Below are positions 15,537 to 33,778 of a stretch of 64,000 bases of DNA, one piece after another. Under the pieces are notes generated by a model. That model made no database searches and was not told where the DNA came from. It worked only from the letters and a program-made list of their open reading frames with translations. The DNA comes from Fusobacterium necrogenes (GTDB lineage: Bacteria > Fusobacteriota > Fusobacteriia > Fusobacteriales > Fusobacteriaceae), in NCBI RefSeq assembly GCF_900450765.1, contig NZ_UGGU01000003.1, forward strand, positions 372,001 through 436,000. The letters are read 5' to 3'. The translations under genes were made by a program, and so were the position numbers. The stretch's first letter is position 1, and every line of letters starts with the position of its first letter.

Positions 15537-17333
15537 ATGATTTACAGGACTCATAATCTTGGTGAATTAAGAAAAGAGAATATCGGACAGACAGTTACAC
15601 TATCTGGTTGGGTAGATACAACTAGAGACTTAGGAGGATTAACTTTCGTCGACTTAAGAGATAGAGAGGGAAAAACTCAAGTAGTTTTTGATATAGATGT
15701 AGCTCCAAAGGATGTTGTAGAACAAGCTCAAAAATTAAGAAATGAAGCAGTTATAAGAGTAGTAGGAACTGTAAGAGAAAGACATAGCAAAAATATGAAT
15801 ATCCCAACTGGAGAGATAGAAGTATTTGCTACTGAACTAACTATCTTAAATAACTGTGATGTATTACCATTCCAAATAACTGGAACAGAGGATAATTTAA
15901 ACGAAAATATCAGATTAAAATATAGATATTTAGATATCAGAAGACCTAAGATGTTAAATAATCTTAGAATGAGACATAAGATGATAATGGCTATTAGAAA
16001 TTATATGGATAAAGAGGGATTTATCGATGTGGATACTCCATTATTAAATAAATCTACTCCAGAAGGAGCAAGAGACTTTTTAGTACCTTGTAGAATCAAT
16101 CCAGGAACTTTTTATGCATTACCTCAATCTCCACAATTATTTAAACAACTTTTAATGATAGCTGGAGTAGAGAGATATTTCCAAATAGCTAAATGTTTTA
16201 GAGATGAGGATTTAAGAGCAGATAGACAATTTGAATTCACTCAATTAGACGTAGAGATGTCATTTGTTGAGATGGATGATGTAATGAATACAATAGAGGG
16301 ATTAGCTAAGAATGTATTTACAGCAATAACAGGAGAAGTAGCTGATTATAAATTCCCAAGAATGCCTTATGCTGAAGCTATGGCAAGATTTGGTTCTGAC
16401 AAACCAGATGTAAGATTTGGAGTGGAGCTAAAAGATTTAACAGAGATAGTTAAAAATTGCGGATTTAAAGCATTTAAAGATGTAGCTGACAATGGTGGAA
16501 TTGTAAAATGTATAACAGCTCCAAAAGCTTTTGAAAAATTCTCAAGAAAAGTTCTTGGAGAGTATGAAGAGTATGCTAAGAGATATTTTGGTGCAAAGGG
16601 AATGGCATACATAAAAATAGCTGAAGATGGAGCTATAACTTCTCCAATAGCTAAATTTTTCTCAGAAGAGGAAATGAAAGCTATCATAGCTAAGGCTGAA
16701 GCAAATCCAGGAGATGTAATTTTAATAATAGCTGATAAAGCAAAAGTAGTATATGGAGCTTTAGGAGCTATGAGACTTAGAATAGGAAAAGAGTTAGATT
16801 TAATTAATAATGATGAGTTTAAATTCCTATGGGTAGTAGATTTCCCAATGTTTACTTATGATGAAGAAGAGGGAAGATACAAAGCTGAGCACCATCCATT
16901 CACTTCTATCAAAGGAGAAGATATGGAAGCTTTCTTAGGTGGACAAACTGAAAGTATTAGAACTAACACTTATGATATGGTATTAAATGGATTTGAAATA
17001 GGAGGAGGTTCTATAAGAATATTTAATCCTGAAATCCAAAACAAAGTGTTTGAAAGATTAGGATTATCTTATGAAGAAGCTAGAGAGAAGTTTGGATTCT
17101 TCGTAGATGCTTTCAAATATGGAGCACCACCTCATGGAGGACTTGCTTTTGGAATAGACAGATGGCTAATGGTAATGTTAAAAGAGGTTTCTATAAGAGA
17201 GGTTATTCCTTTTCCTAAAACAAATAAAGGGCAATGTTTAATGTCAGAAGCACCAAATTTTGTTGACAAAGAGCAATTAGATGAGCTAAATATTGCTGTA
17301 ACTTATAAAGAAGAAGAAAAAATAGAAAAGTAA
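15537..17333 (+). CDS. aspS: Aspartyl-tRNA synthetase (bacterial type)
   Basis: A class II synthetase of 598 residues. The N-terminal OB anticodon-binding domain ('[23 protein letters not shown]') is followed by the catalytic core with '[20 protein letters not shown]', '[19 protein letters not shown]' and C-terminal motif 3 '[12 protein letters not shown]'. The GAD insertion domain (about residues 285-430) marks the bacterial type. Whether it is discriminating or not cannot be told from sequence alone. AAGGAGAGGG precedes the ATG. Confidence 0.97.
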
Positions 17334-19379: not shown

Positions 19380-19402
19380 TTTATATTTTATAACAGGAAG
19401 GG

Positions 19403-19443
19403 ACACCTAAAATCTTATTATTTAAGATTTAGGTGTATTTTTT
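19403..19443 (+). terminator. Intrinsic terminator of argS
   Basis: A 14-bp stem (ACACCTAAAATCTTA with TAAGATTTAGGTGT, one bulged A) is followed by a T-run. It begins 24 nt after the argS stop. Confidence 0.88.
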
Positions 19444-19551
19444 TATTGGTAATATTAGAGAATATAAAATTATGGAGAAGTTTTTCAGTTAGTTGGTAAT
19501 AAGAATGAAGAATATAGATAATTATTAAAATAAATTTTAAGGAGTAGAAAA

Positions 19552-20025
19552 ATGAGAAAAGAAATTGAAAAATTAATAGCTGAAAATGAAAAAATATCTT
19601 TAGAAAAAATAGCTAAAGAGTTAGGAATATCTCTAATAGAGGTATTAAGAGAAGCTCCAACAGCAAGAAAATATCCTCTTGAGAAAAGAGAAGAACTTTT
19701 TGAAATATTAAGAGGATGGGAAAAAGTTTTTCTATTAGTAGTAACTCCTAACTTTGTTTTGGAAATAAAAGATAAGTTTCCAAAGGGATTTTATGCCCAT
19801 GGGTATTTAAATTTCCATGATCCAGAATCTTCAATAGGAGGACATTTAAGTGTTGATAAAATAAAAGAGATTTTCTTAGTAGAGGATAATATGTTTGGAA
19901 GAAAAAGTTGTTCAATAAGATTCTATGGGGAAGATGAGAAGGAAATATTTGCTATATATGTCCCAAGAGATGATAAGAAAGAATTAATTAAAGAGTATTT
20001 AGATTGTTTTTACTCTTTGATATAA
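19552..20025 (+). CDS. hutX: Cytosolic heme-utilization carrier HutX/ChuX family
   Basis: A 157-residue protein of the HutX/ChuX family of intracellular heme carriers. The N-terminus (residues 1-40) is a short helix-turn-helix-like part ('KISLEKIAKELGISLIEVLR'), as in the family. The core contains 'GWEKVFLLVVTPNFVLEIK', 'PKGFYAHGYLNFHDP' and 'GGHLSVDKIKEIFLVE'. It probably passes imported heme to the radical-SAM enzyme encoded at 27489-28757. It has its own AAGGAG site and a terminator, and lies on the opposite strand from the heme importer, 2.6 kb away with a zinc transporter between. No palindrome like those at hutW and znuA is visible upstream. Confidence 0.85.
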   Translation: MRKEIEKLIAENEKISLEKIAKELGISLIEVLREAPTARKYPLEKREELFEILRGWEKVFLLVVTPNFVLEIKDKFPKGFYAHGYLNFHDPESSIGGHLSVDKIKEIFLVEDNMFGRKSCSIRFYGEDEKEIFAIYVPRDDKKELIKEYLDCFYSLI

Positions 20026-20043
20026 AAGTGCTAATAAAAAGAG

Positions 20044-20099
20044 AAAAAGCTGTTAAAAACTAGAATTGTAAAATTTTTTAGTGATAACAGCTTTTTTTA
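20044..20099. terminator. Bidirectional terminator between hutX and znuB
   Basis: AAAAAGCTGTTA (20044-20055) pairs with TAACAGCTTTTT (20085-20096), with A-runs and T-runs on the two sides. It can serve hutX (+) and the znu operon (-). Confidence 0.8.
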
Positions 20100-20129
20100 A
20101 TATTTAAAAAGTTATATATTTTTAGAGTA

Positions 20130-20951
20130 TTAATTAAATTTTTTAATAATTATACTTATTATAAAAATAATTGTTGAAGAAAAAATTACAGCAGCACCAG
20201 AAGGAATAGAAAGAGTAAGATAAACAGGAAGAGTTATTCCCAATATGCAGCTGAGAGTTGAAAATAAAATACTGTATCCTATAAAGCCTCTCATTGAATT
20301 AGAGATATTTTTAGCTGAAGCAGTTGGGATTAAAAGTAATGCTTCAACTAAAATAGAACCAACTATTTTTATTGCTCCTATTGTAGTGATACTTAGCAGA
20401 ATAATAAAAAGATACTCATAAAATTTTATATTTATTTTTCTAGCTAAGGCAATACTAGGGTTTATACTGATTAATAAAAATTTATTGTAACAAGGGTATA
20501 AAATAATAAAAACTAAAACAGTTATAGTTATTAGAATATATATATCTATTTTCTCAATAGTTAGTATTGAACCAAAAAGAATATTTTCAATTATATGTGG
20601 ATTAATTGTTCCAGCTGTATAAGTTAAAAGAGAAGCTCCAATGGAAATAGAGACTGCTAAAAAAATTCCAATTAGAGTATCTGAGGCTATATCAGTTTTA
20701 GTTTTTGTATATATAATCAAAATTCCAAATAAGATAGAATAACCAAAGGTGGAGAGGTAAGGAGTCAAATAATTTTCTCCTAATATTATTCCTATAGCTA
20801 TTCCTGTCATTGCAGCGTGCCCTATGGCTTCAGAATAGAAAGCCATTTTTTTGCTTACAACAAGTGTTCCAATAATTCCTAACAGTGGTCCTATAAAAAA
20901 AGCTGAAATAAGAGCATTTGTGATAAAAGAATAATTAAGTATTTCCAACAT
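20130..20951 (-). CDS. znuB: Metal (zinc-type) ABC transporter permease
   Basis: A membrane permease of the ZnuB/MntB (ABC-3) family with about eight hydrophobic segments across 273 residues. The family motifs are 'SKKMAFYSEAIGHAAMTGIAIG' near residues 35-55 and 'GAIKIVGSILVEALLLIP' in the second half. I choose the ATG at 20951, which has GTAGGTGA just upstream; the longer reading would add 13 residues inside the previous gene. It is the last gene of znuA-znuC-znuB. Zinc is inferred from the His-rich ZnuA partner; manganese cannot be excluded from the permease alone. Confidence 0.9.
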   Translation of the reverse strand: MLEILNYSFITNALISAFFIGPLLGIIGTLVVSKKMAFYSEAIGHAAMTGIAIGIILGENYLTPYLSTFGYSILFGILIIYTKTKTDIASDTLIGIFLAVSISIGASLLTYTAGTINPHIIENILFGSILTIEKIDIYILITITVLVFIILYPCYNKFLLISINPSIALARKINIKFYEYLFIILLSITTIGAIKIVGSILVEALLLIPTASAKNISNSMRGFIGYSILFSTLSCILGITLPVYLTLSIPSGAAVIFSSTIIFIISIIIKKFN

Positions 20952-20955
20952 AAAA

Positions 20956-21648
20956 TCACCTACAAAAAATATTTGAGATTTCTTTTTCAAAAAAATTACT
21001 ATCTAAAAGATTACAAGCTATATTTGTTTTATTTATACAAGTAACAGTGTCAGCAAATTTTTTTACTTTATATAAATTATGTTCTATCCATAGTATTGTA
21101 ATTCCTTGTTCTTTAAGTTCTTTTATAAGCGAAATGAAGAAATCTTCTCCATGCTTATCCATACCAGTTAAAGGTTCATCTAAAATTAAAAAATTTGGTG
21201 TAGGGAGAAGAGATTGTAATAATAATACTCTTTGCCTTTCTCCACCAGATAAAGTTGTAAAAATTGAATTTCTTTTATCATATAGTTTAAATTTTTTTAA
21301 AAGATTATCAACCTGCCTTTGCTTTTTAAAATCAAAACCTAAAAAGCAGGGGGACGTTTGAGAATTAATAGATATAAATTCATTAACAGTCAAGGGGATA
21401 GAATTATTAAGATTGATATGTTGAGGGAGATATCCAATGATATTTTTATGATTATTTTGGAAGGTAATATCCCCTTGAAAGTTAAGTTCTTTTAAAATAC
21501 ATTTTATAAGAGAACTTTTACCTCCACCATTAGGTCCAATTAAGCAATGAATTTCCCCTTTCTTAATCTTGAGATTAATATTTTCTAAGATAGAATTATT
21601 ATCAATAGAAAGGTTTAAATTTTTAATTTCTAGTTCATATTTTTCCAT
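20956..21648 (-). CDS. znuC: Metal (zinc-type) ABC transporter ATP-binding protein
   Basis: The ATPase of the zinc-type importer, 230 residues. Walker A is GPNGGGKSS (residues 38-46), the signature is LSGGERQR, Walker B is 'FLILDEPLTGMD', and the switch His is in 'LWIEHNL'. The order A-C-B with short gaps fits a three-gene operon driven from the promoter upstream of znuA. The last codons lie only 4 nt from the znuB start. Confidence 0.92.
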   Translation of the reverse strand: MEKYELEIKNLNLSIDNNSILENINLKIKKGEIHCLIGPNGGGKSSLIKCILKELNFQGDITFQNNHKNIIGYLPQHINLNNSIPLTVNEFISINSQTSPCFLGFDFKKQRQVDNLLKKFKLYDKRNSIFTTLSGGERQRVLLLQSLLPTPNFLILDEPLTGMDKHGEDFFISLIKELKEQGITILWIEHNLYKVKKFADTVTCINKTNIACNLLDSNFFEKEISNIFCR

Positions 21649-21659
21649 TTTTTATCCTT

Positions 21660-22592
21660 TTATTTTTCTTTTTTTAGAGCAGAGACAATTTCATTCAAGT
21701 CTTGAGAAATCATCTCTTCAAAACTTTCAGCAGAATAGGAACCACCAGTCATATGATAAAGTTCTTTGATGTCTGCTCTAGTTTCTCTTTTTAAAATTTC
21801 CATATATTTATTTTTTAATTGTTTTTCACCAAAAATAACTTTAATATTTTCAGCTTTTAATTTTTTTATAATATGTTGTAAATGTACTATGCTAGGCTCT
21901 ACTCCATGTGCTGGCTCAATAACTATATCGACTTTTTTTCCAAATTCTTTAAAAAGATAGTCATAACCTGCATAAAAAGTAACAACTTTAAAGTTAGAGA
22001 TATCTATATCTTTGATTTCATTAAGAGCATCTTTTTTTAGTTTAGCTAAACGATCAGTATATTCCTTTGCATTCTTTAAGTAGAATTCTCTGTTTTTAGG
22101 ATCTAATTTTCCTAATTGATCTGCAATATACTCTATTTGCTCAATAGACTCAGTTATAGAGATATAGGTATGGGAATTTACTTCCTCATTATGTGAATGT
22201 TCAAGATGATGTTCTTCTTCATGCACATCATGATTATGTTCGTGGGTACATATTCCTTCTGTATGCATTAATTTTATATTTTTGTTAGCTTCAATAATTG
22301 GGATATTTTTTCCACTCATTTTAAGCAGCTTATAGATAAAACTATCATGACCCAGTCCATTTATAACTATAGTATCAAGGGAAGATATTTTTTTCATATC
22401 TTCAACTGTAGGACTATAGTTATGTGAATTATAAATATCTAATCTAACAGGCGTGATAATCTCTGCTCTGTCTTTAACAATATTAGCTACAAAACTATAG
22501 TAAGGTTGTAGAGTAACTCCAATTTTTATTTTTTCTTCAGCAAAAGAGAAAAAAGAAAGTATAGTAAAAAGTAAAATTGTAATTTTTTTCAT
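21660..22592 (-). CDS. znuA: Metal (zinc) ABC transporter substrate-binding protein
   Basis: A periplasmic binding protein of the ZnuA/TroA cluster, 310 residues. It has a signal peptide ending near 'SFFSFAEE'. The mature protein has metal-ligand His residues ('DSHNY'-like 'IYNSHNYSPT', 'SHTYISI') and a His/Glu-rich loop (about residues 108-140, 'CTHEHNHDVHEEEHHLEHSH'), the mark of zinc rather than manganese binders. A helix-rich linker and the 'VVTFYAGYDYLFKEFGKKV' stretch follow. The promoter carries a palindrome shared with hutW. Confidence 0.92.
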   Translation of the reverse strand: MKKITILLFTILSFFSFAEEKIKIGVTLQPYYSFVANIVKDRAEIITPVRLDIYNSHNYSPTVEDMKKISSLDTIVINGLGHDSFIYKLLKMSGKNIPIIEANKNIKLMHTEGICTHEHNHDVHEEEHHLEHSHNEEVNSHTYISITESIEQIEYIADQLGKLDPKNREFYLKNAKEYTDRLAKLKKDALNEIKDIDISNFKVVTFYAGYDYLFKEFGKKVDIVIEPAHGVEPSIVHLQHIIKKLKAENIKVIFGEKQLKNKYMEILKRETRADIKELYHMTGGSYSAESFEEMISQDLNEIVSALKKEK

Positions 22593-22618
22593 AGTATCAT
22601 TCCTTTCCGAAAACTAAA

Positions 22619-22635
22619 ATTTTGAATTTCGAAAT
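22619..22635. promoter_or_regulatory. Fur/Zur-like palindrome at the znuA promoter
   Basis: The 17-mer ATTTTGAATTTCGAAAT is a palindrome with one mismatched pair. On the - strand it lies directly downstream of a TATAAT (22637-22642), so a bound repressor would block znuA initiation. A perfect version of the same site lies at the hutW promoter. Confidence 0.6.
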
Positions 22636-22636
22636 A

Positions 22637-22642
22637 ATTATA
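22637..22642 (-). promoter_or_regulatory. -10 element of the znuA promoter
   Basis: A perfect TATAAT on the - strand 45 nt before the znuA start. The -35 is ambiguous (TTTACA at 15 nt or ACTTTA at 17 nt). Confidence 0.5.
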
Positions 22643-22674
22643 TAAAGAAATAGGAACTGTAAAGTTCCATCTCT

Positions 22675-23565
22675 TTAATTATTTTTTAAATTTTCTAACT
22701 CTTTATATAATTCTTCAACTGCTTCAAAAATTCTTGGAGAACCTCTAAGAATTTTTGTAGAATCTACAATAAAAAGATTATTGTTTTTTCCAGCAGTTGT
22801 TTCCTTAACTATTATATTACTATTTAAAATATCTTCAGGTTTAGAAATACTCATTGCTCCAGCTAAAAAGTCTGGGTTTTGTTGTAATAAAAACTCAGGA
22901 GATATAATAGGTTTGTCCCCAACTAAATTATCTGCTAGATTTTCAATTCCTAGAAGAGATAATATCTGTCCAGGAAGAGATTTAGAGTTAAAAGCCATCA
23001 TAGGAGAAGTTGAATATAGTACTGTTCCTTTCATATTAAGTGGCTGAGCAGTAATTTTAGATTTTATATTATTTAATTTTTCAATAGATTTATCGTAAAG
23101 CAAATCAGCATTTTCTTCATTTCCAGTAAGCTTACCATAAAGTTTTATATTATTTAAAATATCATTAAAACTATTAGCCTCAACAACTATATAGGGAATG
23201 TTGAAAGGTTTTAATGTATCACCTAGTTTTGGAGACATAGCATTTATTAAAACTAAGTCAGGAGAGAAAGAAAGTATTTTTTCAACACTACTATTATTAA
23301 TATGTCCTACATTTGGTAGTAATTTTACCTTTTCTTCAGGATAAATTTTGCTTCTTGCTATAGTTCCAATAGCAGCAATATGGTTTTCAGCCCCAATTAA
23401 ATATAGAGTTTCTATTACTGCAGGATCTAAAACAACTATTTTTTTATACTCTTTAAGTTCAATCTTATTATTATAACTATCTATAACTTGATTATTTTCT
23501 ACTTTTAGAGCAGAAAAAGATAGAGAGTATAGTATAAACATAAAAGAAAAAATTATTTTTTTCAA
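22675..23565 (-). CDS. hmuT: Heme/iron ABC transporter substrate-binding protein
   Basis: A periplasmic BtuF/FepB-type (cluster A-II) binding protein, 296 residues, with a signal peptide ('IFSFMFILYSLSFSALK'). The two-lobed fold is indicated by 'KKIVVLDPAVIETLYLIGAENHIAAIG' near the N-terminus, a central helix and 'LPGQILSLLGIENLADNL'. It is last in the hutW-receptor-permease-ATPase-binding protein run, which points to heme as ligand. No residue proves heme over a siderophore or cobalamin. A short hairpin (GGAACT/AGTTCC) follows the stop, then znuA's own promoter. Confidence 0.82.
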   Translation of the reverse strand: MKKIIFSFMFILYSLSFSALKVENNQVIDSYNNKIELKEYKKIVVLDPAVIETLYLIGAENHIAAIGTIARSKIYPEEKVKLLPNVGHINNSSVEKILSFSPDLVLINAMSPKLGDTLKPFNIPYIVVEANSFNDILNNIKLYGKLTGNEENADLLYDKSIEKLNNIKSKITAQPLNMKGTVLYSTSPMMAFNSKSLPGQILSLLGIENLADNLVGDKPIISPEFLLQQNPDFLAGAMSISKPEDILNSNIIVKETTAGKNNNLFIVDSTKILRGSPRIFEAVEELYKELENLKNN

Positions 23566-23566
23566 T

Positions 23567-24355
23567 TTATTTTCCTCCTTTTAATTTAGGAATGATATAA
23601 GGAATTCCCTCTTCTGTATAACAAACTTGAGATTCTAAATCGTAGACAGCTTTTAAATTTTCTTTAGTTAAAGTTTCCTTAGGAGTTCCTTGGCAAAATA
23701 CCTTTCCATCTTTTAACATGACAATTTCATCACAAAACATGGCAGCAAGATTCAGATCGTGGAGTACCGCTACTGCAGTAAGCTCTTTATCAATGATACT
23801 ATCCTTTACTTTTTTCATTAAATCCAAAGCATGGTTTAAGTCTAAAGCAGATGTAGGCTCATCTAATAAAATAATTTTTGTTTCTTGAGTGAGAGCTCTT
23901 GCTAAAAGAACTCTTTGAAACTCTCCACCAGAAAGACTAACAGCTTTTCTATGTAAAAATTTTTCTAAGTCTAGCTCTTTAATATGATGTTGAGCAATTT
24001 CAACATCTTTCTTTGAATACCCATCCCAACTATTTTTTAAATGGGGAAGTCTTCCCATAAGTACAAACTCTTCTACATCCATAGCAGATACAAGTTGAGA
24101 TTTTTGGGGAACCAGAGAAAGAAGTTTAGCTTTCTCTTTTTGAGATATATTTTTACTTAGAATCTTATCTATATAAATATTCCCACTTTCACTTTTTAAA
24201 TATCCTAAAATATTTTTTAAAAGAGTTGATTTTCCACAACCATTTGGACCTAAAATTCCTGTTAATTTATTTCTTTTTAATTCTAAATTAATACCTTGAA
24301 GTATTTTTCTGTTCCCGTAGGAGAAATTTAAGTTTTCAATTTTTATAGCTTCCAT
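23567..24355 (-). CDS. hmuV: Heme/iron ABC transporter ATP-binding protein
   Basis: The ATPase of the importer, 262 residues. Walker A is GPNGCGKST (residues 36-44), the signature is LSGGEFQRVLLARAL, Walker B is 'IILLDEPTSALD', and the His switch is 'VLHDLNLA', characteristic of the FecE/HmuV/BtuD group. It overlaps the permease by one base, and the hmuT start follows its stop within a few bases, so the three are translationally coupled. Confidence 0.92.
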   Translation of the reverse strand: MEAIKIENLNFSYGNRKILQGINLELKRNKLTGILGPNGCGKSTLLKNILGYLKSESGNIYIDKILSKNISQKEKAKLLSLVPQKSQLVSAMDVEEFVLMGRLPHLKNSWDGYSKKDVEIAQHHIKELDLEKFLHRKAVSLSGGEFQRVLLARALTQETKIILLDEPTSALDLNHALDLMKKVKDSIIDKELTAVAVLHDLNLAAMFCDEIVMLKDGKVFCQGTPKETLTKENLKAVYDLESQVCYTEEGIPYIIPKLKGGK

Positions 24356-25326
24356 TAGAAATCTCTCCTTTTATTTTTTAATGCTAAGTATAGGAAGAAT
24401 GGAGCTCCAAAAAATGCAGTAATTACACCAATAGGAATCTCTACTGGAGCAAGAACTATTCTTCCAAAGGTATCACATATGAGTAGAAAAAATCCACCAG
24501 CTAAAATTGTGCTAGGTAGCACCTTAGTATTAGATGGACCTACAATCATTCTAATAGTATGTGGTACAATGAGCCCTACAAAGCCAATCATTCCAGAAAA
24601 AGCCACTGAAAAAGCTACAATAAGAGCAGACACAGTAAGTGTTCTCACTTTCAATCTATTTACATCAACTCCTAATGAGTGGGCTTCTTCATCACCAGAT
24701 AATAGAGCATCTAATTCATGTCTTTTAGAATAGAAATATACCAGTGATAAGATAAGTGGAATTAAGATAAAGATAACTCTTTTCCAAGTAGCATTTCCAA
24801 GATACCCCATCATCCACATTGTTATTTTAAAGGAATCTTCTCCAATTAGATACATAGTAAAAGATGTAAATGCTCCTAAGAAAGATGAAACGGCAATTCC
24901 AACTATTAACAGAGTGGCAACATTTACTTTGTTTCCCTTTTTAGCCATTTTAAAAATAAGAAGAGTACTAGCTAAACAAGTTATAAAAGCTAAGACACCA
25001 TACATAAAATCTGGAAGATTTAGCACAAAGGCAATTACAGCTCCAAAAGTAGCACTTGCTGCAATTCCAATAATATAAGGATCGGCAAGAGGATTTTGAA
25101 ATACTGTTTGTACCACTACTCCACTAGATGCTAACATCATTCCAATTAATAGAGACATAATTATTCTAGGTAATCTTAGGTTAAAAATTATTGTTTTTAT
25201 ATAATCAGGTGCTTTTCCTGGAGAAAATATATACTCCAGAGGAATAGGGACACTCCCCATAGGTATAGCAAGTATCCCTGTTATGATAATTCCTATTGTA
25301 AGCACGATAGGTAAAATTTTCTTCAT
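24355..25326 (-). CDS. hmuU: Heme/iron ABC transporter permease
   Basis: A FecCD/BtuC-family permease with about ten membrane segments, 323 residues. The family landmarks are 'LRLPRIIMSLLIGMMLASSGVVVQTVFQNPLADPYIIG' (split here by about residues 50-88), 'GDEEAHSLGV' coupling helix and 'GFVGLIVPHTIRMIVGP'. I take the ATG at 25326, which has GTGAGG 6 nt upstream, over the GTG at 25338 that forms part of that site. It follows the TonB receptor by 31 nt. Confidence 0.9.
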   Translation of the reverse strand: MKKILPIVLTIGIIITGILAIPMGSVPIPLEYIFSPGKAPDYIKTIIFNLRLPRIIMSLLIGMMLASSGVVVQTVFQNPLADPYIIGIAASATFGAVIAFVLNLPDFMYGVLAFITCLASTLLIFKMAKKGNKVNVATLLIVGIAVSSFLGAFTSFTMYLIGEDSFKITMWMMGYLGNATWKRVIFILIPLILSLVYFYSKRHELDALLSGDEEAHSLGVDVNRLKVRTLTVSALIVAFSVAFSGMIGFVGLIVPHTIRMIVGPSNTKVLPSTILAGGFFLLICDTFGRIVLAPVEIPIGVITAFFGAPFFLYLALKNKRRDF

Positions 25327-25357
25327 ATAATTCCTCACATTTTAATCTCTTTTTATC

Positions 25358-27427
25358 TTATAAACTATATCTAAATCCTACATAGTAGTTTCTTTCAGCT
25401 GCTGGGTCATAAGTGTAACCTTCTGATTGACTATATTTAATAGAGCTATAATATTCTTTATCAAACAGGTTATTAATCCCAGCGTAAAGAGTTAAACCAT
25501 TATTAAAAGTATATCCTGCTCTAATATTTGTAACTGTATAACTACCTTTTTTACCAGATTCATTACTATTTTCAATGTATGAACTTCCAGTATATACCAT
25601 CTCACCATTGATATTGAATCTAGAAGTAAAATCATATCTAGCTCCTAAAGTAAACTTATGAGTAGGAACCCCTTCAATTTTTCTACCAGCTAAATTAGCT
25701 CCATCAATTCTATCACCACTATCAGTATACTGTTTTTCAATACCTTTTTTTATTTCAGCATGCATATATTGATAAGATTCAGAAAGAGTTAATTTTCCAA
25801 AGTAATGTTCTAGAGAGATTTCAGCTCCATATCTTTCTGTTTCATCTATATTGTAATTTAAAGTTTGTGTTCCCATTCCTATCATATTAGTATAAATTTC
25901 ATTATCAGTTTGAGTATAGAAAATAGAGGTATTAATAGCTGTATTACCAATATAGTCACTCGTTCCAAATTCTACACTTCTATATGTTTCTGACTCTAAG
26001 TTATTTAATTCATAATTTGTTCCTTTCATTTCTCCCATAGGAGTCTGCTTTATATATGGCACTGTATCAGTTAAAAGTGCTGGTGGTGGTGAAGTAAATC
26101 CTTGTTCTAATCTAGTATAAATTTTCCCTGTATCAGAGTATAAATAATTTCCAGATAATTCTATTGCAAAATTATCTATGTCTTTATTTTTATCTAAATT
26201 TTTTATAATAGGAAAAGGCATCCCTGGAGGAGTAGTTGTTGATTTTCTCCAAATATCATAATTAGATTTTTCATATCTGATTCCTTGGTTAAATTCAAAG
26301 CTACCAGTTTTGTAGTTATTCATAATAAAAGTTCCAAAGGTTTCTTTATTAAATTTATTCTGAGTAACACTTATTCCCATTTGGTCCATATTTGCATATC
26401 TTTTAGCTTCATTATCAATATAATCTAATCCAAATACTATCGAGCTTCCAGTTTTTCCATAAAAATATTTTAATTTAGGTTTTACTCCAACTTTTTTATC
26501 ATCAAAGAATCCATATGGCTTTTTACCTTTATTAGCTATATTCATATTTGTTTCTTGTTGGAAAGCAACTAAGTTAAAATCTAAGTTATCACTTATTTTA
26601 GTATTATAAGTTAAAACATAGTCTTCTTTTTCAGTGTGGATATTAGTAATAGAAGAACCAGATTGTTTTCTATCTTCTTCCACTTGTTTTTTAGTTAGCA
26701 TATCAGGAGATAGAATACCAGACTCATAATTAGAATATTTTAATTCTAATGATTGGTTATCACTGATATTATATTTTAAATTCCCTTGGAAAAATTCCGT
26801 ATTATCATGAGATTCATCTCTATAACCATCAGTATCAGTTTTACTATAAATTACATTAGCATTAAATTTTCCAAAAGTTTGCCCTGCAGAAATGTCATAT
26901 TTATTTCCACCAAAACTAGAATAATCATAAGCTACATTAGCTCTAAGCCCTTTTCCTCTCTTAGTGATGATATTGATTACTCCACCAGCAGTTCCACTTC
27001 CATATAGAACACTTCCTCCACCAGGAATAACCTCAATTCTTTCGATAGAACTTACAGGGATTGTATTGATAGGTGTACTTGTCATAGAAGTATCTAAAGA
27101 GTTTACTGCTACTCCGTCAATAAGAATTTGAACATTTCTTTTAGCTATAGTTCCACCTTGACCTCTTAAGTCAACAGTTGAACCAAAAGTATCTTTGGTA
27201 ATAGAAACACTAGGAATATCTTCTAAAATTTCAAGTACACTTTTATAATCTTTTTCTTCGATTTTTTCAGATGTTACGATTGTAGGGTTGGCAGCAACCT
27301 CTCTCATCTCAGTAGCAAATCCTGTAGTAGAGTAAATAAGACTCTTTCCTAAGTTAATACTGTTTGTTTTTCCATAGGCACATACAGCAAGTAGAGCCCA
27401 AAGCAATGTAGCTTTTTTCTTATTCAT
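25358..27427 (-). CDS. hmuR: TonB-dependent outer-membrane heme receptor
   Basis: A 689-residue outer-membrane receptor. A signal peptide ('LLWALLAVCAYG') precedes the plug domain ('VLEILEDIPSVSITKDTFGS', 'VNSLDTSMTSTPI', 'ERIEVIPGGGSVLYGSGT', 'AGGVINIITKRG'). The 22-strand barrel ends in the aromatic C-terminus 'YYVGFRYSL'. Downstream hmuUVT and upstream hutW make heme the likely ligand; the FRAP/NPNL signature of some heme receptors is not obvious, so the ligand is inferred. TonB-ExbBD are not in the window. Confidence 0.88.
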   Translation of the reverse strand: MNKKKATLLWALLAVCAYGKTNSINLGKSLIYSTTGFATEMREVAANPTIVTSEKIEEKDYKSVLEILEDIPSVSITKDTFGSTVDLRGQGGTIAKRNVQILIDGVAVNSLDTSMTSTPINTIPVSSIERIEVIPGGGSVLYGSGTAGGVINIITKRGKGLRANVAYDYSSFGGNKYDISAGQTFGKFNANVIYSKTDTDGYRDESHDNTEFFQGNLKYNISDNQSLELKYSNYESGILSPDMLTKKQVEEDRKQSGSSITNIHTEKEDYVLTYNTKISDNLDFNLVAFQQETNMNIANKGKKPYGFFDDKKVGVKPKLKYFYGKTGSSIVFGLDYIDNEAKRYANMDQMGISVTQNKFNKETFGTFIMNNYKTGSFEFNQGIRYEKSNYDIWRKSTTTPPGMPFPIIKNLDKNKDIDNFAIELSGNYLYSDTGKIYTRLEQGFTSPPPALLTDTVPYIKQTPMGEMKGTNYELNNLESETYRSVEFGTSDYIGNTAINTSIFYTQTDNEIYTNMIGMGTQTLNYNIDETERYGAEISLEHYFGKLTLSESYQYMHAEIKKGIEKQYTDSGDRIDGANLAGRKIEGVPTHKFTLGARYDFTSRFNINGEMVYTGSSYIENSNESGKKGSYTVTNIRAGYTFNNGLTLYAGINNLFDKEYYSSIKYSQSEGYTYDPAAERNYYVGFRYSL

Positions 27428-27488
27428 ATGTATATCTCTCCTTTACATTAAATTAATTATTAGATTAATAAAATAAAATTATATAAAT

Positions 27489-28757
27489 TTATTTATTAAA
27501 AACTTTATCTAAAATATATCCAATAATATCTATTGAAAGATTATTTCCCCAGAAAACCCCATCTTTAGTAAAATTAAAGGAATTTTCTTTTTCAATAACA
27601 AGTTTTTCTTCCCCATAATTCTTCATTTTTTCACAGAAGTACGTATACTCTTCCTCGTTTAAAATAGCTTTAATACTCTCCTTAGAGATGATAGGGAACT
27701 GCATTATTCCAGAAAGTTTAGCAAATTTGGCATGGTATTCAGTCTGCTTAGAATAAAAGCTCATCTCTTTATTCATTCTAAATACTTCAATTCCTTGAAC
27801 ACTACCTCCAGCACCTACTCCAATAGGGAAAGTATCACCACCACTATTTCTAACTTGAATGTACTGGTAAGTATCTCCACCATTTTTAGCTATCTTAGTA
27901 AGTTCTAAAATGTGGTACTTATTCTCTCTTAACATTTCATCAACAAAATGAGAGTAAAGAAGATAATCTTTTTTCATATCCTCTTCCATTATTACTTTTT
28001 CAGCTTCAATATCTTTAGAAAGCTTAGATCCTTCATGAACCATAAGGGAATAGAAACTAGCACTTCCAAGTTCTAATTTTTTCACAATTCTAGCATCTTC
28101 AACAACCTCTTCAATAGTTTGGTCAGGGAAATTATAGATAATGTCTACGCATACCTCTCCTTTGAAGAAGTTTTTTAGTTTTTTAAGTTTTTCAATAACT
28201 TCATTTTTACTATAAGTTCTATTATAGAAAATTCTTCCTCTTTCTGAGAAAGTTTGAATTCCTACACTAAGTCTATTTACTCCATATTTCATCATTACTT
28301 CTAATTTTTCTTTAGTAAGATTATGAAGAGTTGTTTCAAAAGTAAACTCATAGTTCTCTCCAGGTTTTACATTTCTTTGAATACTCTGAAGTATAATTTC
28401 AAGTTGTTTAGGTTTATAAATAGTAGGAGTTCCTCCACCAAAGAAAATAACATCAAAAGTACTCTCTTTAAAATATGTTGTTTGACCATATTTATCAAAT
28501 TCACTAGCTATATATTCAGCATAGGAATCTAGACTACCATCTAGTTGTTTTCTATTTAAATTACAAAATGAACATATTTTATCACAATATGGTGTATGTA
28601 CATAAATAGCTTTTTTTCTATCATCCGGCTTTATCTCAAGCATAGCTTTAAAACTTGATTTATCAGCTTTTTCACTAGGAACATATTTGCTAATAAGTCC
28701 AGTACTATCATGATGAGATTTATGCCTCTTATTAAATAATAATAAATTGTTAATCAT
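27489..28757 (-). CDS. hutW: Anaerobic heme-degrading radical SAM enzyme (HutW/ChuW, anaerobilin synthase)
   Basis: A radical SAM methyltransferase of the ChuW/HutW/HmuW family, 422 residues, resembling HemN. The cluster motif is Cys58-x3-Cys62-x2-Cys65 in 'HTPYCDKICSFC'. Then come 'VIFFGGGTPTIYKPKQL' and 'LSVGIQTFSERGRIFYNR', which are HemN-like. ChuW-type enzymes open the heme ring without oxygen, giving anaerobilin and releasing iron; the F. nucleatum homologue (HmuW) has been studied. It heads the heme-import run, so heme taken in by HmuR-UVT is broken down here. The promoter carries a perfect 17-bp palindrome. Confidence 0.93.
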   Translation of the reverse strand: MINNLLLFNKRHKSHHDSTGLISKYVPSEKADKSSFKAMLEIKPDDRKKAIYVHTPYCDKICSFCNLNRKQLDGSLDSYAEYIASEFDKYGQTTYFKESTFDVIFFGGGTPTIYKPKQLEIILQSIQRNVKPGENYEFTFETTLHNLTKEKLEVMMKYGVNRLSVGIQTFSERGRIFYNRTYSKNEVIEKLKKLKNFFKGEVCVDIIYNFPDQTIEEVVEDARIVKKLELGSASFYSLMVHEGSKLSKDIEAEKVIMEEDMKKDYLLYSHFVDEMLRENKYHILELTKIAKNGGDTYQYIQVRNSGGDTFPIGVGAGGSVQGIEVFRMNKEMSFYSKQTEYHAKFAKLSGIMQFPIISKESIKAILNEEEYTYFCEKMKNYGEEKLVIEKENSFNFTKDGVFWGNNLSIDIIGYILDKVFNK

Positions 28758-28810
28758 CCAAATCCTCCTCTAAAGCATACATATTTAGCCAATTATTAAC
28801 ATTCAATTAT

Positions 28811-28827
28811 ATTTTGAAATTCAAAAT
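28811..28827. promoter_or_regulatory. Fur-like palindrome at the hutW promoter
   Basis: The 17-mer ATTTTGAAATTCAAAAT is a perfect palindrome around 28819, between the hutW -10 element and the hutW start. It matches the znuA site at 22619-22635 with two differences. A Fur-family repressor is the natural candidate. Confidence 0.65.
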
Positions 28828-28842
28828 AATTTTATTATAGAT

Positions 28843-28871
28843 ATAATAATATTTTTTTTATATAAAGTCAA
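28843..28871 (-). promoter_or_regulatory. hutW promoter
   Basis: On the - strand TTGACT (28871-28866) and TATTAT (28848-28843) are 17 nt apart, 86 nt before the hutW start. Confidence 0.7.
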
Positions 28872-28896
28872 TAAAAAATAAATAAAATCTAATAAT

Positions 28897-28925
28897 TTGA
28901 CTTTATAATTAAAATATGATATAAG
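28897..28925 (+). promoter_or_regulatory. Flavodoxin promoter, mirror of the hutW promoter
   Basis: TTGACT (28897-28902) and TATAAG (28920-28925) with 17-nt spacing. With the divergent hutW -35 it forms an 11-bp perfect inverted repeat, TATAAAGTCAA (28861-28871) and TTGACTTTATA (28897-28907). Confidence 0.7.
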
Positions 28926-28953
28926 TTTTAATAAAAAAAGTAGGAGGAATATG

Positions 28954-29460
28954 ATGAAAATATTGGTTACTTATTCAACACTAACAGGGAACACTAAAAA
29001 AGTTTGTGAAGCAGCAGCAGAAGCTTTTACTGAGGTAGAAATAAAAGATATAAGTGAAGTAACAACTTTAGATTATGATTTAATAGTTGTCGGAACTTGG
29101 ATAGATAAAGGGACTGCAGATACAAAGGCTCTTAATTTTATCGAAACAATAAAGAAAAAGAAAACAGCTTTCATATTTACATTAGGAGCTTATCCAGACT
29201 CACAACACGCTATGGATTGTATAAAGAGAATAAAAAAATTATTTGAAGGCAATGAAAATGAAGTAGTAGGACACTATCACTGTCAAGGAGCTATTGATCC
29301 AAAACTTATAGAGATGATGAAAACAAAATTTGGACCAGATCATCCTCATGGACCAAACCCTGAAAGAATAAAAAGATGGGAAGATGCAAGTAAGCATCCA
29401 GATGAAAATGATTTAGATATGGCTTACAATTATTTTAAAGAATTAATAAATAAATTATGA
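28954..29460 (+). CDS. Flavodoxin family protein, heme-locus type
   Basis: A 168-residue long-chain-like flavodoxin. The FMN-phosphate loop is 'TYSTLTGNTKKV' (about residues 5-16). 'LIVVGTWIDKGTAD' and 'FTLGAYPDSQHAMDC' are the later FMN loops. A C-terminal extension rich in His and Pro ('KFGPDHPHGPNPERIKRW') is distinctive and also known in the BilS/HmuF-like flavodoxins. AGGAGG is 6 nt before the ATG at 28954 and only 3 nt before the one at 28951, so I use the former. Its divergence from hutW and shared promoter region suggest it feeds electrons to, or acts after, heme ring opening. Confidence 0.85.
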   Translation: MKILVTYSTLTGNTKKVCEAAAEAFTEVEIKDISEVTTLDYDLIVVGTWIDKGTADTKALNFIETIKKKKTAFIFTLGAYPDSQHAMDCIKRIKKLFEGNENEVVGHYHCQGAIDPKLIEMMKTKFGPDHPHGPNPERIKRWEDASKHPDENDLDMAYNYFKELINKL

Positions 29461-29465
29461 TATAT

Positions 29466-29492
29466 AGCTTCTCAGGTATAGAAGCTTTTTTA
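29466..29492 (+). terminator. Intrinsic terminator of the flavodoxin gene
   Basis: AGCTTCT pairs with AGAAGCT around a 7-nt loop, followed by six T, 6 nt after the stop. Confidence 0.85.
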
Positions 29493-29797
29493 TAATAATA
29501 AAACAAAATTAAATTTATGAAGTGGTTTAAATTTAATAGATGTTATTAGCTAATTTATTTTAAAAAGCAAAAATTATCTAAGAAATTAAAAGTTGTTATC
29601 TTAAATATTTTATCATTATAGAAATATAAAAGCTGTCAGATCGTTAATTCACTGACAGCTTTTATATTAGTTGTTAATTAAGTAAATTAAAATACTTTAA
29701 AAGAAAGGATTAATTGAATTATACATGAATGTTAAATAAAAGTCAAGAAAAAATTTGTTTATTTAAATATTTTTAATATCAAACTAAAAAATAATAA
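29493..29797. other. Intergenic region between convergent genes
   Basis: About 300 nt of AT-rich sequence between the flavodoxin terminator and the YbaN stop. It holds no ORF worth naming. The one clear structure is the 17-bp inverted repeat at 29623-29668, listed separately; a possible TTGTTA/TATAGA promoter lies just before it. Confidence 0.5.
29623..29668. repeat. Perfect 17-bp inverted repeat, likely bidirectional terminator
   Basis: The 17-mer at 29623-29639 pairs perfectly with 29652-29668 around a 12-nt loop. The core is AAAAGCTGTCAG / CTGACAGCTTTT. It lies about 130 nt past the YbaN stop and 160 nt past the flavodoxin stop, and its T-run is short (four). Confidence 0.65.
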
Positions 29798-30157
29798 CTA
29801 ATTCAAAGTTTTTAATTTTAAAATATGAAAAGAAACTACTATCAATATTACTATTAAAAAGATTTTAAGATATAAATTAGATATTTTTGTTATAGAAAAA
29901 GTAACACTAATGATTAAAGTAAGGATAGCTATAAATTTATTTTTCCTACTAACACCTTTCTTTTCTTGATAATCTTTGATATATTTTCCAAAAATTTTAT
30001 TTTCTAAGAGAGCTTTATGAAATTTTTCTGAAGATTTATTAAAACAATATGCACTTAGAAGTAAAAAAGGAGTAGTGGGAAGTATTGGAAGAAAAATACC
30101 TATACTTCCTAAAATAATAGAGAGTATTCCAACAACAAAAAAAATTTTTTTCTTCAT
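29798..30157 (-). CDS. YbaN / DUF454 inner-membrane protein
   Basis: A 119-residue membrane protein of the YbaN (DUF454) family. The N-terminal hallmark is 'GILSIILGSIGIFLPILPTTPFLLLSAYCF' (about residues 10-40, a hairpin of two hydrophobic stretches around PTTP). 'FGKYIKDYQEKKGVSRKNK' follows, then two further membrane segments near the C-terminus. Function is unknown; in many bacteria the family occurs near heme or iron genes, as here. It has its own AAGGAG site. Confidence 0.85.
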   Translation of the reverse strand: MKKKIFFVVGILSIILGSIGIFLPILPTTPFLLLSAYCFNKSSEKFHKALLENKIFGKYIKDYQEKKGVSRKNKFIAILTLIISVTFSITKISNLYLKIFLIVILIVVSFHILKLKTLN

Positions 30158-30211
30158 GATATTTCTCCTTATATTTTTAGATATTTATTTAAAAATATAC
30201 TAAAGAAAGGT

Positions 30212-30243
30212 AAAAAAGTCAAATAAAGATTTTTGACTTTTTT
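30212..30243. terminator. Terminator of the NAD(P)H oxidoreductase gene
   Basis: AAAAAAGTCAAA (30212-30223) pairs with TTTGACTTTTTT (30232-30243). On the - strand the T-run follows the stem, 35 nt after the gene's stop at 30278; the + strand also has a T-run. Confidence 0.75.
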
Positions 30244-30277
30244 ATTTTAGTAAGACAAAATATTTATATCTATAAGA

Positions 30278-31165
30278 TTAGATTTCATAATTAAAGAATT
30301 TTTGATTAAGATAATTTTTTAAATCATTTCTAAGTAAATTTAATTCTTTTAAATACTCTTGAGTTGAAGGTTTAGGATATCTATCATTTACAAATCTACC
30401 TAAATTTTTCATTCCCCACCAATTTGCCATGTCATCATCAAAAACTTTATAAGCTTTCATATAATTATCCCATTTTTTATCTTCTATTCCTACTCCATCT
30501 CCAATGAACCCTCTTCCTCCACCTAAATATCCACAATTCATTATAGTAAAAATAGATTTTCCATTAAGTAGTCCTATATGTCCATCAGAATTAAAGTCGT
30601 ATGCAAATTTTTTTCCAAAAATTCTTTCCTGATATCCCTTTACTATAGAAGTAGCACTATCGTGCCAGTTAGGGTAAGCAAATATTATATAATCGGCTTT
30701 TGTAATAAAATTTTGTTCAATGATTACATCTTCAGGAGTAGCTCCTACCCCATCTTTTTGAGAATAAAACTCATCGGGATGTAAAATAGGGTTAAAATTC
30801 ATTTTATATAAATCTCTAATCTCTACCTCTATACCATTTTCTTCAAAATATTTCATAGAGGTATATACCATATCAAAAAGTATAGAGTTATCTCTATTAT
30901 CTCCTACTACAAAGAGAGCTTTTTTCTTATTAGAGTTTGTAAATCCATGAGGTATGTATTTTGAAACATAAGAAGCTGGAACTACTGAAGCAGATGTTAT
31001 TCCGTCTAATTTTTCTCTCTCTTTTTCTGAAAGAGTAGAACTATAATTATTAGAATTAATTATTTTAATTTCTACTTTCTCTTCTTTATTTATATAGTTG
31101 TAAAGTCCAATTACCCCTAAACCTAAAAATCCCATTAAAATTAAACTTTTTAGTTGACTATTCAT
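30278..31165 (-). CDS. Membrane-anchored NAD(P)H oxidoreductase, flavodoxin-like fold (MdaB/NQO1 type)
   Basis: A 295-residue protein. Residues 7-23 form a membrane anchor or uncleaved signal. Residues 30-75 are a polar segment containing 'LDGITSASVV', which resembles the D-x-I-S-G-A-T motif of FMN-binding domains. The rest (from 'KKALFVVGDNRDNSILF') is a flavodoxin-like NAD(P)H quinone oxidoreductase: 'MNFNPILHPDEFYSQ', 'ADYIIFAYPNWHDSATSIVKGYQERIF' (its core is ADYIIFAYPNWH) and 'NCGYLGGG'. It probably reduces quinone-like substrates or flavins on the outer face. It lies upstream of YbaN on the same strand; the metal/heme context suggests a redox role, but no substrate can be named. Confidence 0.75.
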   Translation of the reverse strand: MNSQLKSLILMGFLGLGVIGLYNYINKEEKVEIKIINSNNYSSTLSEKEREKLDGITSASVVPASYVSKYIPHGFTNSNKKKALFVVGDNRDNSILFDMVYTSMKYFEENGIEVEIRDLYKMNFNPILHPDEFYSQKDGVGATPEDVIIEQNFITKADYIIFAYPNWHDSATSIVKGYQERIFGKKFAYDFNSDGHIGLLNGKSIFTIMNCGYLGGGRGFIGDGVGIEDKKWDNYMKAYKVFDDDMANWWGMKNLGRFVNDRYPKPSTQEYLKELNLLRNDLKNYLNQKFFNYEI

Positions 31166-31177
31166 ATTTTCACTTCC

Positions 31178-31831
31178 TTAAATATTATTTCTTAATTGCT
31201 TTCTTTTTTCTTTCCAACTTGGCATATATTTTTCTACAAAATCCCAAAATTCTTTTTGATGATGTGGATATGGAATATGAGATAGTTCATGAAGAATGAC
31301 ATAATCAATTATATCCTTTGACTTTTTATAGAGTTGATGATTAAAGGTTATACTTCTAGAGAGAGTGTTACAAGAACCCCATCTAGTCTTCATATCTCTA
31401 AATTTTATCACTTTAGGAGAATATCCTATACTTTTTCCTATCTCCATAGTTCTATTGATAACATAGGGATAAAAGTTATCATATATCCATTGATTGATTA
31501 ATTTTTTTCTCTTTTCAAAGCTATTCTCTTTAAGAGAGATTATAAAGTTATTATCTTTAATCTCACATCTTTCTTGAGGAGATATTTCTATCTTGATAAT
31601 ATATGGAAATCCAAGATAATAGAATTTATCTCCTTCTTCAAACTTAGTTTCTAACTTTTTCCTCTCTTCTATTAGAGCTATTTTTTCTCTTATCCATTTT
31701 TCTTTTTCTTTTAAGAGAGATTCTATATATGAATTTGGAACTTTTATTGGAGCAGATACAAGAACTTCTCCATCACTATTTATTCTGATTGTAATATTTT
31801 TCATTTTTTTTCTAGTTATTTTTATCTTCAT
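31178..31831 (-). CDS. YgjP-like (DUF45) metallopeptidase
   Basis: A zinc metallopeptidase of the YgjP/DUF45 group. The active site is 'VILHELSHIPYPHHQKEFW' (HExxH plus the following His), preceded by the diagnostic 'FRDMKTRWGSCNTLSRSITF'. The C-terminal 'MPSWKEKRKQLRN' is also typical. The frame is open up to a TTG at 31855, but that codon lies before a TATAAT-like sequence. I use the ATG at 31831, and the start remains uncertain since no good Shine-Dalgarno is visible at any candidate. Its cellular substrate is unknown. Confidence 0.8.
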   Translation of the reverse strand: MKIKITRKKMKNITIRINSDGEVLVSAPIKVPNSYIESLLKEKEKWIREKIALIEERKKLETKFEEGDKFYYLGFPYIIKIEISPQERCEIKDNNFIISLKENSFEKRKKLINQWIYDNFYPYVINRTMEIGKSIGYSPKVIKFRDMKTRWGSCNTLSRSITFNHQLYKKSKDIIDYVILHELSHIPYPHHQKEFWDFVEKYMPSWKEKRKQLRNNI

Positions 31832-31910
31832 AGTTTTTATTATATCATATTTCAAAATTATTTTTTATAAAATTGGAGAAATAAAGAGAGTTCTTCATAT
31901 AAAAAATATA

Positions 31911-31939
31911 TTGAGTTTTTTTGTATTATCTTTTATAAT
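31911..31939 (+). promoter_or_regulatory. lepA promoter
   Basis: TTGAGT at 31911-31916 and TATAAT at 31934-31939, 17 nt apart, 37 nt before the lepA start. Confidence 0.75.
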
Positions 31940-31975
31940 ACTATGTGAATAAATAGGATTTAGTAGGAGGTAAGA

Positions 31976-33778
31976 ATGTTACAAAAACATAAAAGGAACT
32001 TCTCTATAATAGCTCATATAGATCATGGAAAATCTACAATAGCAGATAGATTATTAGAGTATACTGGTGCTGTTTCTAAAAGAGAGATGAAAGAGCAACT
32101 TCTTGATTCAATGGATTTGGAAAGAGAGAAGGGAATAACTATAAAAGCTCAAGCTGTAACTTTATATTATAAGGCAAAAGATGGAATAGAGTATGAATTA
32201 AACTTAATTGATACTCCAGGACACGTAGACTTTATCTATGAGGTATCAAGATCATTATCAGCTTGCGAGGGAGCTTTACTAGTAGTAGATGCTGCTCAAG
32301 GAGTAGAGGCTCAAACTTTAGCTAACGTATATTTAGCAATAGAGAATAATCTTGAGATAGTACCTGTAATCAATAAAATAGATTTACCAGCAGCTGATCC
32401 AGAAAAAGTAAAAGTTGAGATAGAGGATGTTATTGGACTTCCAGCTGATGATGCTGTAATGTGTTCAGGTAAGACAGGAATAGGTATTGAAGATTTATTA
32501 GAAGCAATAGTAAAGAGAATACCAGCTCCAAATTATGAAGAGGATGCTCCTTTAAAAGCTTTAATATTCGACTCTAAATTTGATGATTATAGAGGGGTAA
32601 TCACATATGTAAAAGTTTTAGATGGAAGTATTAAAAAGGGAGATAAAATTAGAATCTGGTCAACAGAGAAAGATTTTGATGTTTTAGAGGTTGGAGTATT
32701 TTCTCCTACTATGAAACCTCAAGATGAGCTTTCTTCTGGTTCAGTTGGATATATAATAACAGGAGTTAAAACAATACATGATACAAGAGTAGGAGATACT
32801 ATCACTCATACAAATAACCCTTGTATATTCCCATTAGAGGGATTTAAACCAGCTCAGTCAATGGTATTTGCTGGAGTATATCCATTATTTACAGATGACT
32901 ATGAAGATTTAAGAGAGGCATTAGAAAAATTACAATTAAATGATGCTTCATTAACATTTGTACCTGAGACATCAATAGCTCTAGGATTTGGATTTAGATG
33001 TGGATTCTTAGGATTACTACATATGGAGATTATAGTTGAAAGACTTAGAAGAGAGTACAATATAGACTTGATTTCTACTACACCATCAGTTGAGTATAGA
33101 GTAAATATGGATAAGGGCGAGGTACTTGTAATAGATAACCCTTGTGAATTCCCAGATGGTGGAAGAGGGAGATTATCAGTAGAGGAACCATTTATAAGAG
33201 GTAAGGTAATAGTTCCTAAGGACTATGTAGGAAATGTGATGGAACTTTGTCAAGAGAAGAGAGGGATATTTATAGGTATGGACTTTATTGATGAAAATAG
33301 ATCAATGCTTACCTATGAATTACCACTTGCAGAGATAGTGATAGATTTCTATGATAAATTAAAATCAAGAACTAAAGGATATGCTTCATTTGAATATGAA
33401 TTAGTAGGATATAAGGAATCAGACTTAGTTAAGGTAGATATACTTGTATCTGGAAAACCTGTGGATGCTTTCTCATTTATAGCTCATAAAGATGGCGCTT
33501 ACAGTAGAGGAAGAGCTATCTGTGAAAAATTAAAAGAGGTTATCCCAAGACAACAATTTGAAATACCTATACAAGCAGCACTAGGAGCAAAGGTTATAGC
33601 AAGAGAGACTATCAAGGCATATAGAAAGAACGTTATAGCTAAATGTTATGGTGGAGATATCACAAGAAAGAAAAAACTTCTTGAAAAACAAAAAGAGGGT
33701 AAAAAGAGAATGAAGAGTATAGGAAATGTTGAGATCCCTCAAGAAGCTTTCGTATCAGTATTAAAATTAAATGATTAA
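31976..33778 (+). CDS. lepA: Elongation factor 4 (back-translocating GTPase LepA)
   Basis: A ribosome-associated GTPase of 600 residues that acts on stalled or mistranslocated ribosomes. G1 '[15 protein letters not shown]' (about residues 13-27), G2 '[14 protein letters not shown]', G3 '[16 protein letters not shown]' and G4 'NKIDLPAA' are present. The LepA-specific C-terminal domain ends in '[22 protein letters not shown]'. A TAGGAGG site precedes the ATG. It has its own promoter and is followed 18 nt later by a glycosyltransferase. Confidence 0.97.

Follow-up and report, generated by a model that had tools for sequence, protein, structure and literature searches.

A window of 64,000 nucleotides from Fusobacterium necrogenes (contig NZ_UGGU01000003.1, positions 372,001 to 436,000) holds a putative heme uptake operon and a putative zinc uptake operon, each preceded by a copy of a 17-bp palindrome; these two palindromes, and the longer metal box of which they form the core, are the subject of this report. 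The genome is 2.0 Mb in size and groups with Fusobacteriaceae. The two operons are adjacent and co-directional on the minus strand, in the order hmuW, TonB receptor, hmuUVT-like genes, hairpin and znuACB-like genes, so that the two palindromes bracket one gene cluster. The first gene (27489-28757) is proposed to encode an HmuW/HutW-like radical SAM heme-degrading enzyme, with TIGR04107 as its best match (212 bits, the cut-off of 400 not being reached). It is followed by a TonB-dependent receptor of the siderophore/heme type (25358-27427), an ABC permease of the B12/heme/iron type that is hmuU-like by position (24355-25338), a heme-type, hmuV-like ABC ATPase (23567-24355; 243.5 bits, cut-off 261) and a substrate-binding protein that is hmuT-like by position (22675-23565). 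The zinc operon consists of genes for a znuA-like metal-binding protein with a His-rich loop (21660-22592; AztC-, Mn- and ZnuA-type matches), a znuC-like ATPase (20956-21648) and a znuB-like permease (20130-20990); all of these matches lie below their cut-offs, as does that of the hmuF-like flavodoxin (28951-29460, plus strand; best match a BilS-type flavodoxin), which is divergent from hmuW. The 82-bp gap between hmuT and znuA carries both a terminator-like hairpin (22644-22676, minus strand; leader fold z = -3.35) and the znuA palindrome.

The palindrome at hmuW (28811-28827, ATTTTGAAATTCAAAAT) pairs at eight of eight positions and that at znuA (22619-22635, ATTTTGAATTTCGAAAT) at seven of eight, and the two differ by a single base once one is reverse-complemented. 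A sequence-only reading of this DNA had described the first as perfect and the second as having one mismatched pair, and had placed them at or just past the -10 of minus-strand promoters; this placement is borne out for the promoters that we predict by eye. At hmuW (28843-28871) these are TTGACT (28871-28866), a 17-bp spacer and TATTAT (28848-28843), after which the palindrome follows; the whole box (28806-28832) would lie at about +10 to +26, assuming that transcription starts 7 nt past the -10. The predicted znuA promoter (22637-22663) is weak, its sole -35 being TTTACA at a 15-bp spacing, and its TATAAT (22642-22637) ends 1 bp ahead of the palindrome, which is where the core of the znuA box (22614-22640) begins. 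We consider it probable that both palindromes are operators of one metal-responsive transcription factor of Fusobacteriaceae. Judged from the window alone the pair is barely distinguishable from chance; the beyond-chance case is owed to the relatives.

The strongest evidence comes from the ferrous iron transport gene feoA. Leaders of 120 bp were collected through the FeoA protein and not through the motif, and were scanned for TTTG-N5-C(A/G)AA. The dyad occurs in its exact form upstream of feoA(B) in all 12 genomes of the genus, and in 17 of 18 separately fetched Fusobacteriota leaders, from Propionigenium, Cetobacterium, Psychrilyobacter, an Ilyobacter metagenome-assembled genome and others (14 exact, three with C-G-AA). 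Thus 29 of the 30 leaders, 27 of which are distinct, carry it, against 0.19 of 30 expected; the 14 exact cases include one match elsewhere in the leader (L196) and two sites identical to those of genus genomes (L192 and L195, as in G019 and G023). None of 13 Chloroflexi feoA leaders matches, and the dyad is found in none of 43 coding sequences over their first 240 nt. The three C-G-AA leaders (L198, L202 and L205) are Cetobacterium-type, and the same variant makes the znuA palindrome imperfect. The box can be written as (A)YTTTGA-NNN-TCAAA(R)T inside an AAAATA...TATTTT frame, or about AAAATAYTTTGANNNTCAAARTATTTT over 27 bp, with TTTG, C and AA as the conserved columns and a variable centre. 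In L206, L208 and L209 a TTGAC(A/T)-TATAAT-like promoter stands before the dyad, as at hmuW, and at feoA a terminator-like hairpin stands ahead of the feoA box, analogous to znuA (both by eye); the box lies about 17 bp past the hairpin at feoA and at znuA.

The promoter of feoA1 (L010:1130-1215; also L122, L123 and L127) holds a PerR-like element over its -10 in addition to a metal box beside its -35. This element reads TTATAATTATTACAT in G018, the closest relative, and TTATAATTGTTACGT in the F. necrogenes genome. The arrangement suggests dual control of feo by a PerR-like element and the metal box.

A matrix built from feo sites only (28 sites, 23 of them distinct, with no hmuW or znuA site, and leaving out L196 and L194, the latter without a match) singles out the two window sites. 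Among the 28 intergenic regions of the window it ranks the hmuW box first (22.6 bits) and the znuA box second (14.9 bits), the third region reaching 10.6 bits. In simulated intergenic DNA of the window 14.9 bits was reached in 4.5% of 1000 trials; in a simulated 82-bp gap it was reached in 0.1% of 2000 trials. The simulations never reached 22.6 bits. A further model (R1) was trained on 36 sites, namely the 23 feo sites and 13 hand-chosen hits from L043-L059; it excludes the other L043-L059 hits and all L040-L042 hits, and contains no genus site other than feo, hence none from genus hmuW or znuA. The rows of L124, L129 and L127 are outside alignment A2. Among the best 150 of 5346 candidates scored, R1 places hmuW second in the genome, after a training feo site, with an E value of 0.02.

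Copies of the box also stand at other metal-uptake genes. In the whole 2.0-Mb genome (G000) the hmuW and znuA 17-mers are the only places within one mismatch; within two mismatches there are 18, of which 11 are inside genes, one lies over a gene start and six are intergenic, at hmuW, znuA, feoA, a NikA-like binding protein, a TonB receptor and katG/marR. Metal-uptake genes are thus downstream of five of the six. The NikA-like protein scores 605 bits (cut-off 393), and its box is found again in G019 and in the very similar genome G020; the site in G000 is not among the R1 matches listed and comes from the mismatch and feo-matrix scans. The TonB receptor copy is flanked on its other side by a divergent esterase-domain gene. 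The feoA copy sits between feoA and a gene for 75 amino acids (L010:1237-1464), which has no Pfam match at E <= 0.001 and is separated from feoA by a hairpin. In relatives the feo-only matrix finds boxes upstream of exbB in Cetobacterium-type heme loci, a label inferred partly by resemblance (Pfam confirms ExbB and ExbD in L048), within the region of hmuW and hmuF in G023 and G028, and ahead of a DUF454 gene in G018, G026 and G027; DUF454 is Pfam-confirmed for the gene in the window and ExbB for L048, the other gene names being assigned by eye. A znuA gene of G021, 49% identical and neighboured by genes for DUF6162 and DUF1007, has its box where the operon probably starts, so that znu operons bear the box in two contexts (G000/G018 and G021). 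In 10 of the 12 heme/zinc loci, 300 shuffles seldom equal the best intergenic feo-matrix score (P <= 0.033); six of the 10 are free of caveats, namely the loci of G000, G023, G026, G027 and G028 and, in G021, the znu locus. The pattern ANTTTGNNNNNCAAAR, scanned in G000 and G018, classified 50 distinct places, 39 in genes and 11 intergenic; five of the latter are at metal genes (feoA twice, hmuW, and the znuA and exbB genes of G018), two are at a flavodoxin gene and belong to a -35, and the remaining four show no link to metals.

Individual sites turn over among these relatives. The znuA box of G018 is a perfect palindrome with the same centre, a symmetric change having turned TTTCGAAATTCAAAA into TTTTGATAATCAAAA. 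If the shared-box reading is right, it is the regulon that is conserved rather than each site. One motif recurs at unrelated operons (feo, hmu, znu, the NikA-like system, the TonB receptor and exbB), and it would seem that one operator is common to the uptake of heme, zinc, ferrous iron and probably also nickel.

Taking the sites, their positions relative to the predicted promoters, their conservation at feo and their recurrence at metal-uptake genes as observed, we infer binding by a protein, repression, a sensed metal and a single protein for all sites. A dimer would recognise the box as a dyad in the DNA. In metal-replete cells the regulator would most likely occupy the hmuW and znuA sites, immediately past the -10, and block initiation; the boxes past the -10 at hmuW, znuA and feoA of L206-L209 fit such a repressor. 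Upon starvation the regulator would leave, and the heme and zinc operons would be expressed alongside feoAB, the NikA-like system and the TonB receptor, joined in relatives by ExbB. Where the box follows a hairpin, at feoA and znuA, it might possibly serve as a roadblock to read-through. At feoA1 (its promoter seen in five of 12 loci, those where the gene was located) and at the TonB receptor the box is found just ahead of the predicted -35 and outside the transcript, which favours a DNA operator; there it could mean activation or looping.

Several observations weigh against this shared-operator proposal. Box positions vary, so that there may be more than one mode of action. The genome shows no excess of the literal 17-mer over a backwards control at two mismatches (14+6 against 15+13) or at three (96+96 against 86+91), and a near-palindrome pair within one mismatch of each other is present in five of 20 simulated windows. 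In 30 whole-window shuffles the top feo-matrix score averaged 13.0 bits with a maximum of 18.6, beside which the 14.9 bits of znuA are unexceptional, and with R1 the znuA site (E 0.48, among the best 150 of 5346 candidates) is not significant genome-wide alone. The hmuW box of G018 is degraded (six of eight pairs, two being lost), and the other seven genus hmuW leaders examined hold no match better than four mismatches. Three of the positive heme/zinc loci overlap a TTGAC hexamer (G018, G024 and G025), where a -35 may explain the match, and that of G022 is a weak copy by a small-RNA gene; the two negative loci, of G021 and G022, hold another, 48%-identical hmuW type. Strong matrix matches also occur in coding sequence, in the binding-protein gene of G024-G027, and in leaders that have no obvious connection with metals (L107/L108/L254, L240, L256 and L258). 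Within the window itself the 17-mer does have 11 matches at up to three mismatches against 4.7 expected, a number reached by two of 100 shuffles; as palindromes the sites are unremarkable, with seven perfect 17-bp palindromes against 4.3 expected. As a genus-wide motif TTTTGANNNTCAAAA was rejected, with 22 sites against 26 in the backwards control over 12 genomes. A chance likeness of two AT-rich palindromes in adjacent operons would account for the missing excess, the simulated pairs and the degraded G018 site, yet we hold it to be very improbable, given that a matrix made from independent feo sites singles out both palindromes and that the box is conserved at feo and recurs at metal genes. 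The signal is found not in the literal 17-mer but in a looser core with conserved flanks. The scan at up to three mismatches proposed by the sequence-only reading gave a divided answer, with a 17-mer that is not enriched and an underlying box that recurs at metal genes; random scatter and poor conservation, the outcomes it had set against itself, describe the 17-mer in part (no excess; the hmuW site degraded in G018) and not the box. We find it equally improbable that the elements work at the RNA level, as leader stem-loops affecting stability or translation, and not as protein-binding DNA. The hmuW, znuA and feoA elements do fall within or close to the predicted 5' leader, with hairpins ahead of them at znuA and feoA, but feoA1, the TonB receptor and the candidate small-RNA gene described below have their copies upstream of the predicted -35, and the feoA stem is constant only as TTTG/CAAA, its outer pairing being inconsistent (by eye).

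If the palindromes are protein-binding operators, the next matter is which protein reads them. The sequence-only reading had named one Fur-superfamily repressor for heme and zinc, or else two regulators with similar sites. The shared site is upheld by the feo matrix and the relatives, and it extends beyond heme and zinc to ferrous iron, the NikA-like system, the TonB receptor and exbB; the Fur-superfamily part is not supported. Only one protein of the genome is matched by PF01475, the Fur family. This protein (L001:1453-1866) resembles PerR, its top NCBIfam model being PerR at 106 bits, short of the cut-off of 180, so that no Fur or Zur protein other than this PerR-like one was found by that search, and the genes after it encode desulfoferrodoxin and rubredoxin (recognised by eye). 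Fur and Zur boxes are 7-1-7 inverted repeats, TGATAATNATTATCA-like, a form that the metal box, with its conserved TTTG, C and AA and variable centre, does not show. It is unlikely that this protein combines the roles of Fur, Zur and PerR for all metals by binding a diverged box. No other Fur-family protein was found, it is present in 11 of the 12 genomes of the genus (the one without it is 71% complete), and Fur proteins often fill such a role; its leaders across the genus, however, share a different, TANAATNRTTACAA-like element, which resembles a PerR box, and contain no feo-matrix match of at least 14.5 bits. Three of the 12 genomes have two or three Fur-family proteins, and there the family count alone is indecisive. 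Still somewhat less likely are two regulators, one for iron/heme and one for zinc, with similar boxes. The split between Fur and Zur is common among bacteria and the znuA match is the weaker one (14.9 against 22.6 bits), but only one Fur-family protein and no protein with a DtxR C-terminal domain were found, the znuA variant CGAA occurs at feo sites of relatives too, and znu operons are boxed in two contexts. The domain Fe_dep_repr_C (PF02742) is matched in none of the 12 genus genomes at E <= 0.001, while the control is matched in 11 of 14; the N-terminal domain family was not searched. The regulator is probably neither a Fur nor a DtxR protein.

A weak lead is the MarR-type protein P0001, a candidate regulator encoded next to katG. 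Its leader carries the palindrome AAAATAGTTTGATATAAAACTATTTT, with half-sites similar to those of the box and a spacing one base shorter (7.1 bits against the box matrix), and the match of P0001 to the AdcR model is weak (19.6 bits, cut-off 175). It may simply be a peroxide sensor. The catalase-peroxidase gene (L120:444-3268) is divergent from the MarR gene, and the MarR leader holds an inverted repeat with a 16-bp stem. The broadest form of our proposal, for which we see a modest chance, clearly less than even, is that in Fusobacteriaceae iron, heme, zinc and nickel uptake, together with a starvation-induced small RNA beside hmuF, are under a single non-Fur, non-DtxR regulator, possibly of the MarR type, with its own 27-bp box, as a lineage-specific replacement of Fur.

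The candidate small-RNA gene lies between hmuF and the DUF454 gene (29620-29747, minus strand). It has a predicted TTGACT-TATAAT promoter, a conserved transcript of about 95 nt from near CAATTAATCCTTTCTTTT and a strong terminator hairpin; the window region 19000-32500, this gene included, has no Rfam match at E <= 1. In the fetched loci it is present once here, twice in G018 (L084:12954-13135 and 15949-16118) and once in G022 (L087:7837-8002), always at heme loci. Some 17 bp ahead of the -35 there is a weak element resembling the box, aligned as TTTGA...AAAATATTT in the four copies. The element in the window (29764-29790, minus strand) scores 10.2 bits, which is within chance, 10.6 bits arising in 29% of simulations of the window's intergenic DNA. 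Elsewhere around the cluster, a HutX heme carrier gene (19552-20025; 126.5 bits, above the cut-off of 110) adjoins the znu operon on the opposite strand, and an OmpR-type response regulator and histidine kinase pair (36648-38691) lies about 8 kb from the heme cluster.

Iron and heme uptake bear on fusobacterial growth in the host. A family-wide box predicts a regulon and suggests a coupling between the uptake systems for iron, heme, zinc and nickel; it could also be used as bait to isolate the regulator, and leads one to ask what performs the functions of Fur and DtxR in the fusobacterial lineage.

Among known systems, Fur, Zur and PerR boxes are, like the metal box, AT-rich inverted repeats at iron, heme and zinc uptake promoters, and often overlap the -10/+1 region. 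They differ in being 7-1-7 repeats, against TTTGA-NNN-TCAAA in an AAAATA...TATTTT frame, and the one Fur-family protein encoded here resembles PerR and has a different element in its leader. DtxR, MntR and IdeR operators couple iron or manganese uptake to metal level, but Fe_dep_repr_C went unmatched, at the threshold given, in the 12 genus genomes. MarR-type operators, including those of AdcR, which controls zinc uptake, share with the metal box a short-spaced inverted repeat, and differ in that the spacing in the P0001 leader is one base off. In the literature searched, by title and the start of the abstract and with few subscription papers, no metal operator is described for fusobacteria. 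For F. nucleatum polymorphum, PMC1924603 mentions a homologue of Fur as well as an iron-dependent regulator. The main text of PMC10404700, on the hmu operon of F. nucleatum, contains neither 'promoter' nor 'repress', and its passages on these genes give no operator. Its operon, with HmuW and HmuF, comprises the same kinds of genes as the F. necrogenes cluster; hmuF is divergent from hmuW in F. ulcerans and F. varium, the same layout as here, and F. nucleatum hmu is reported to be up-regulated after cellular iron falls (PMC10404700).
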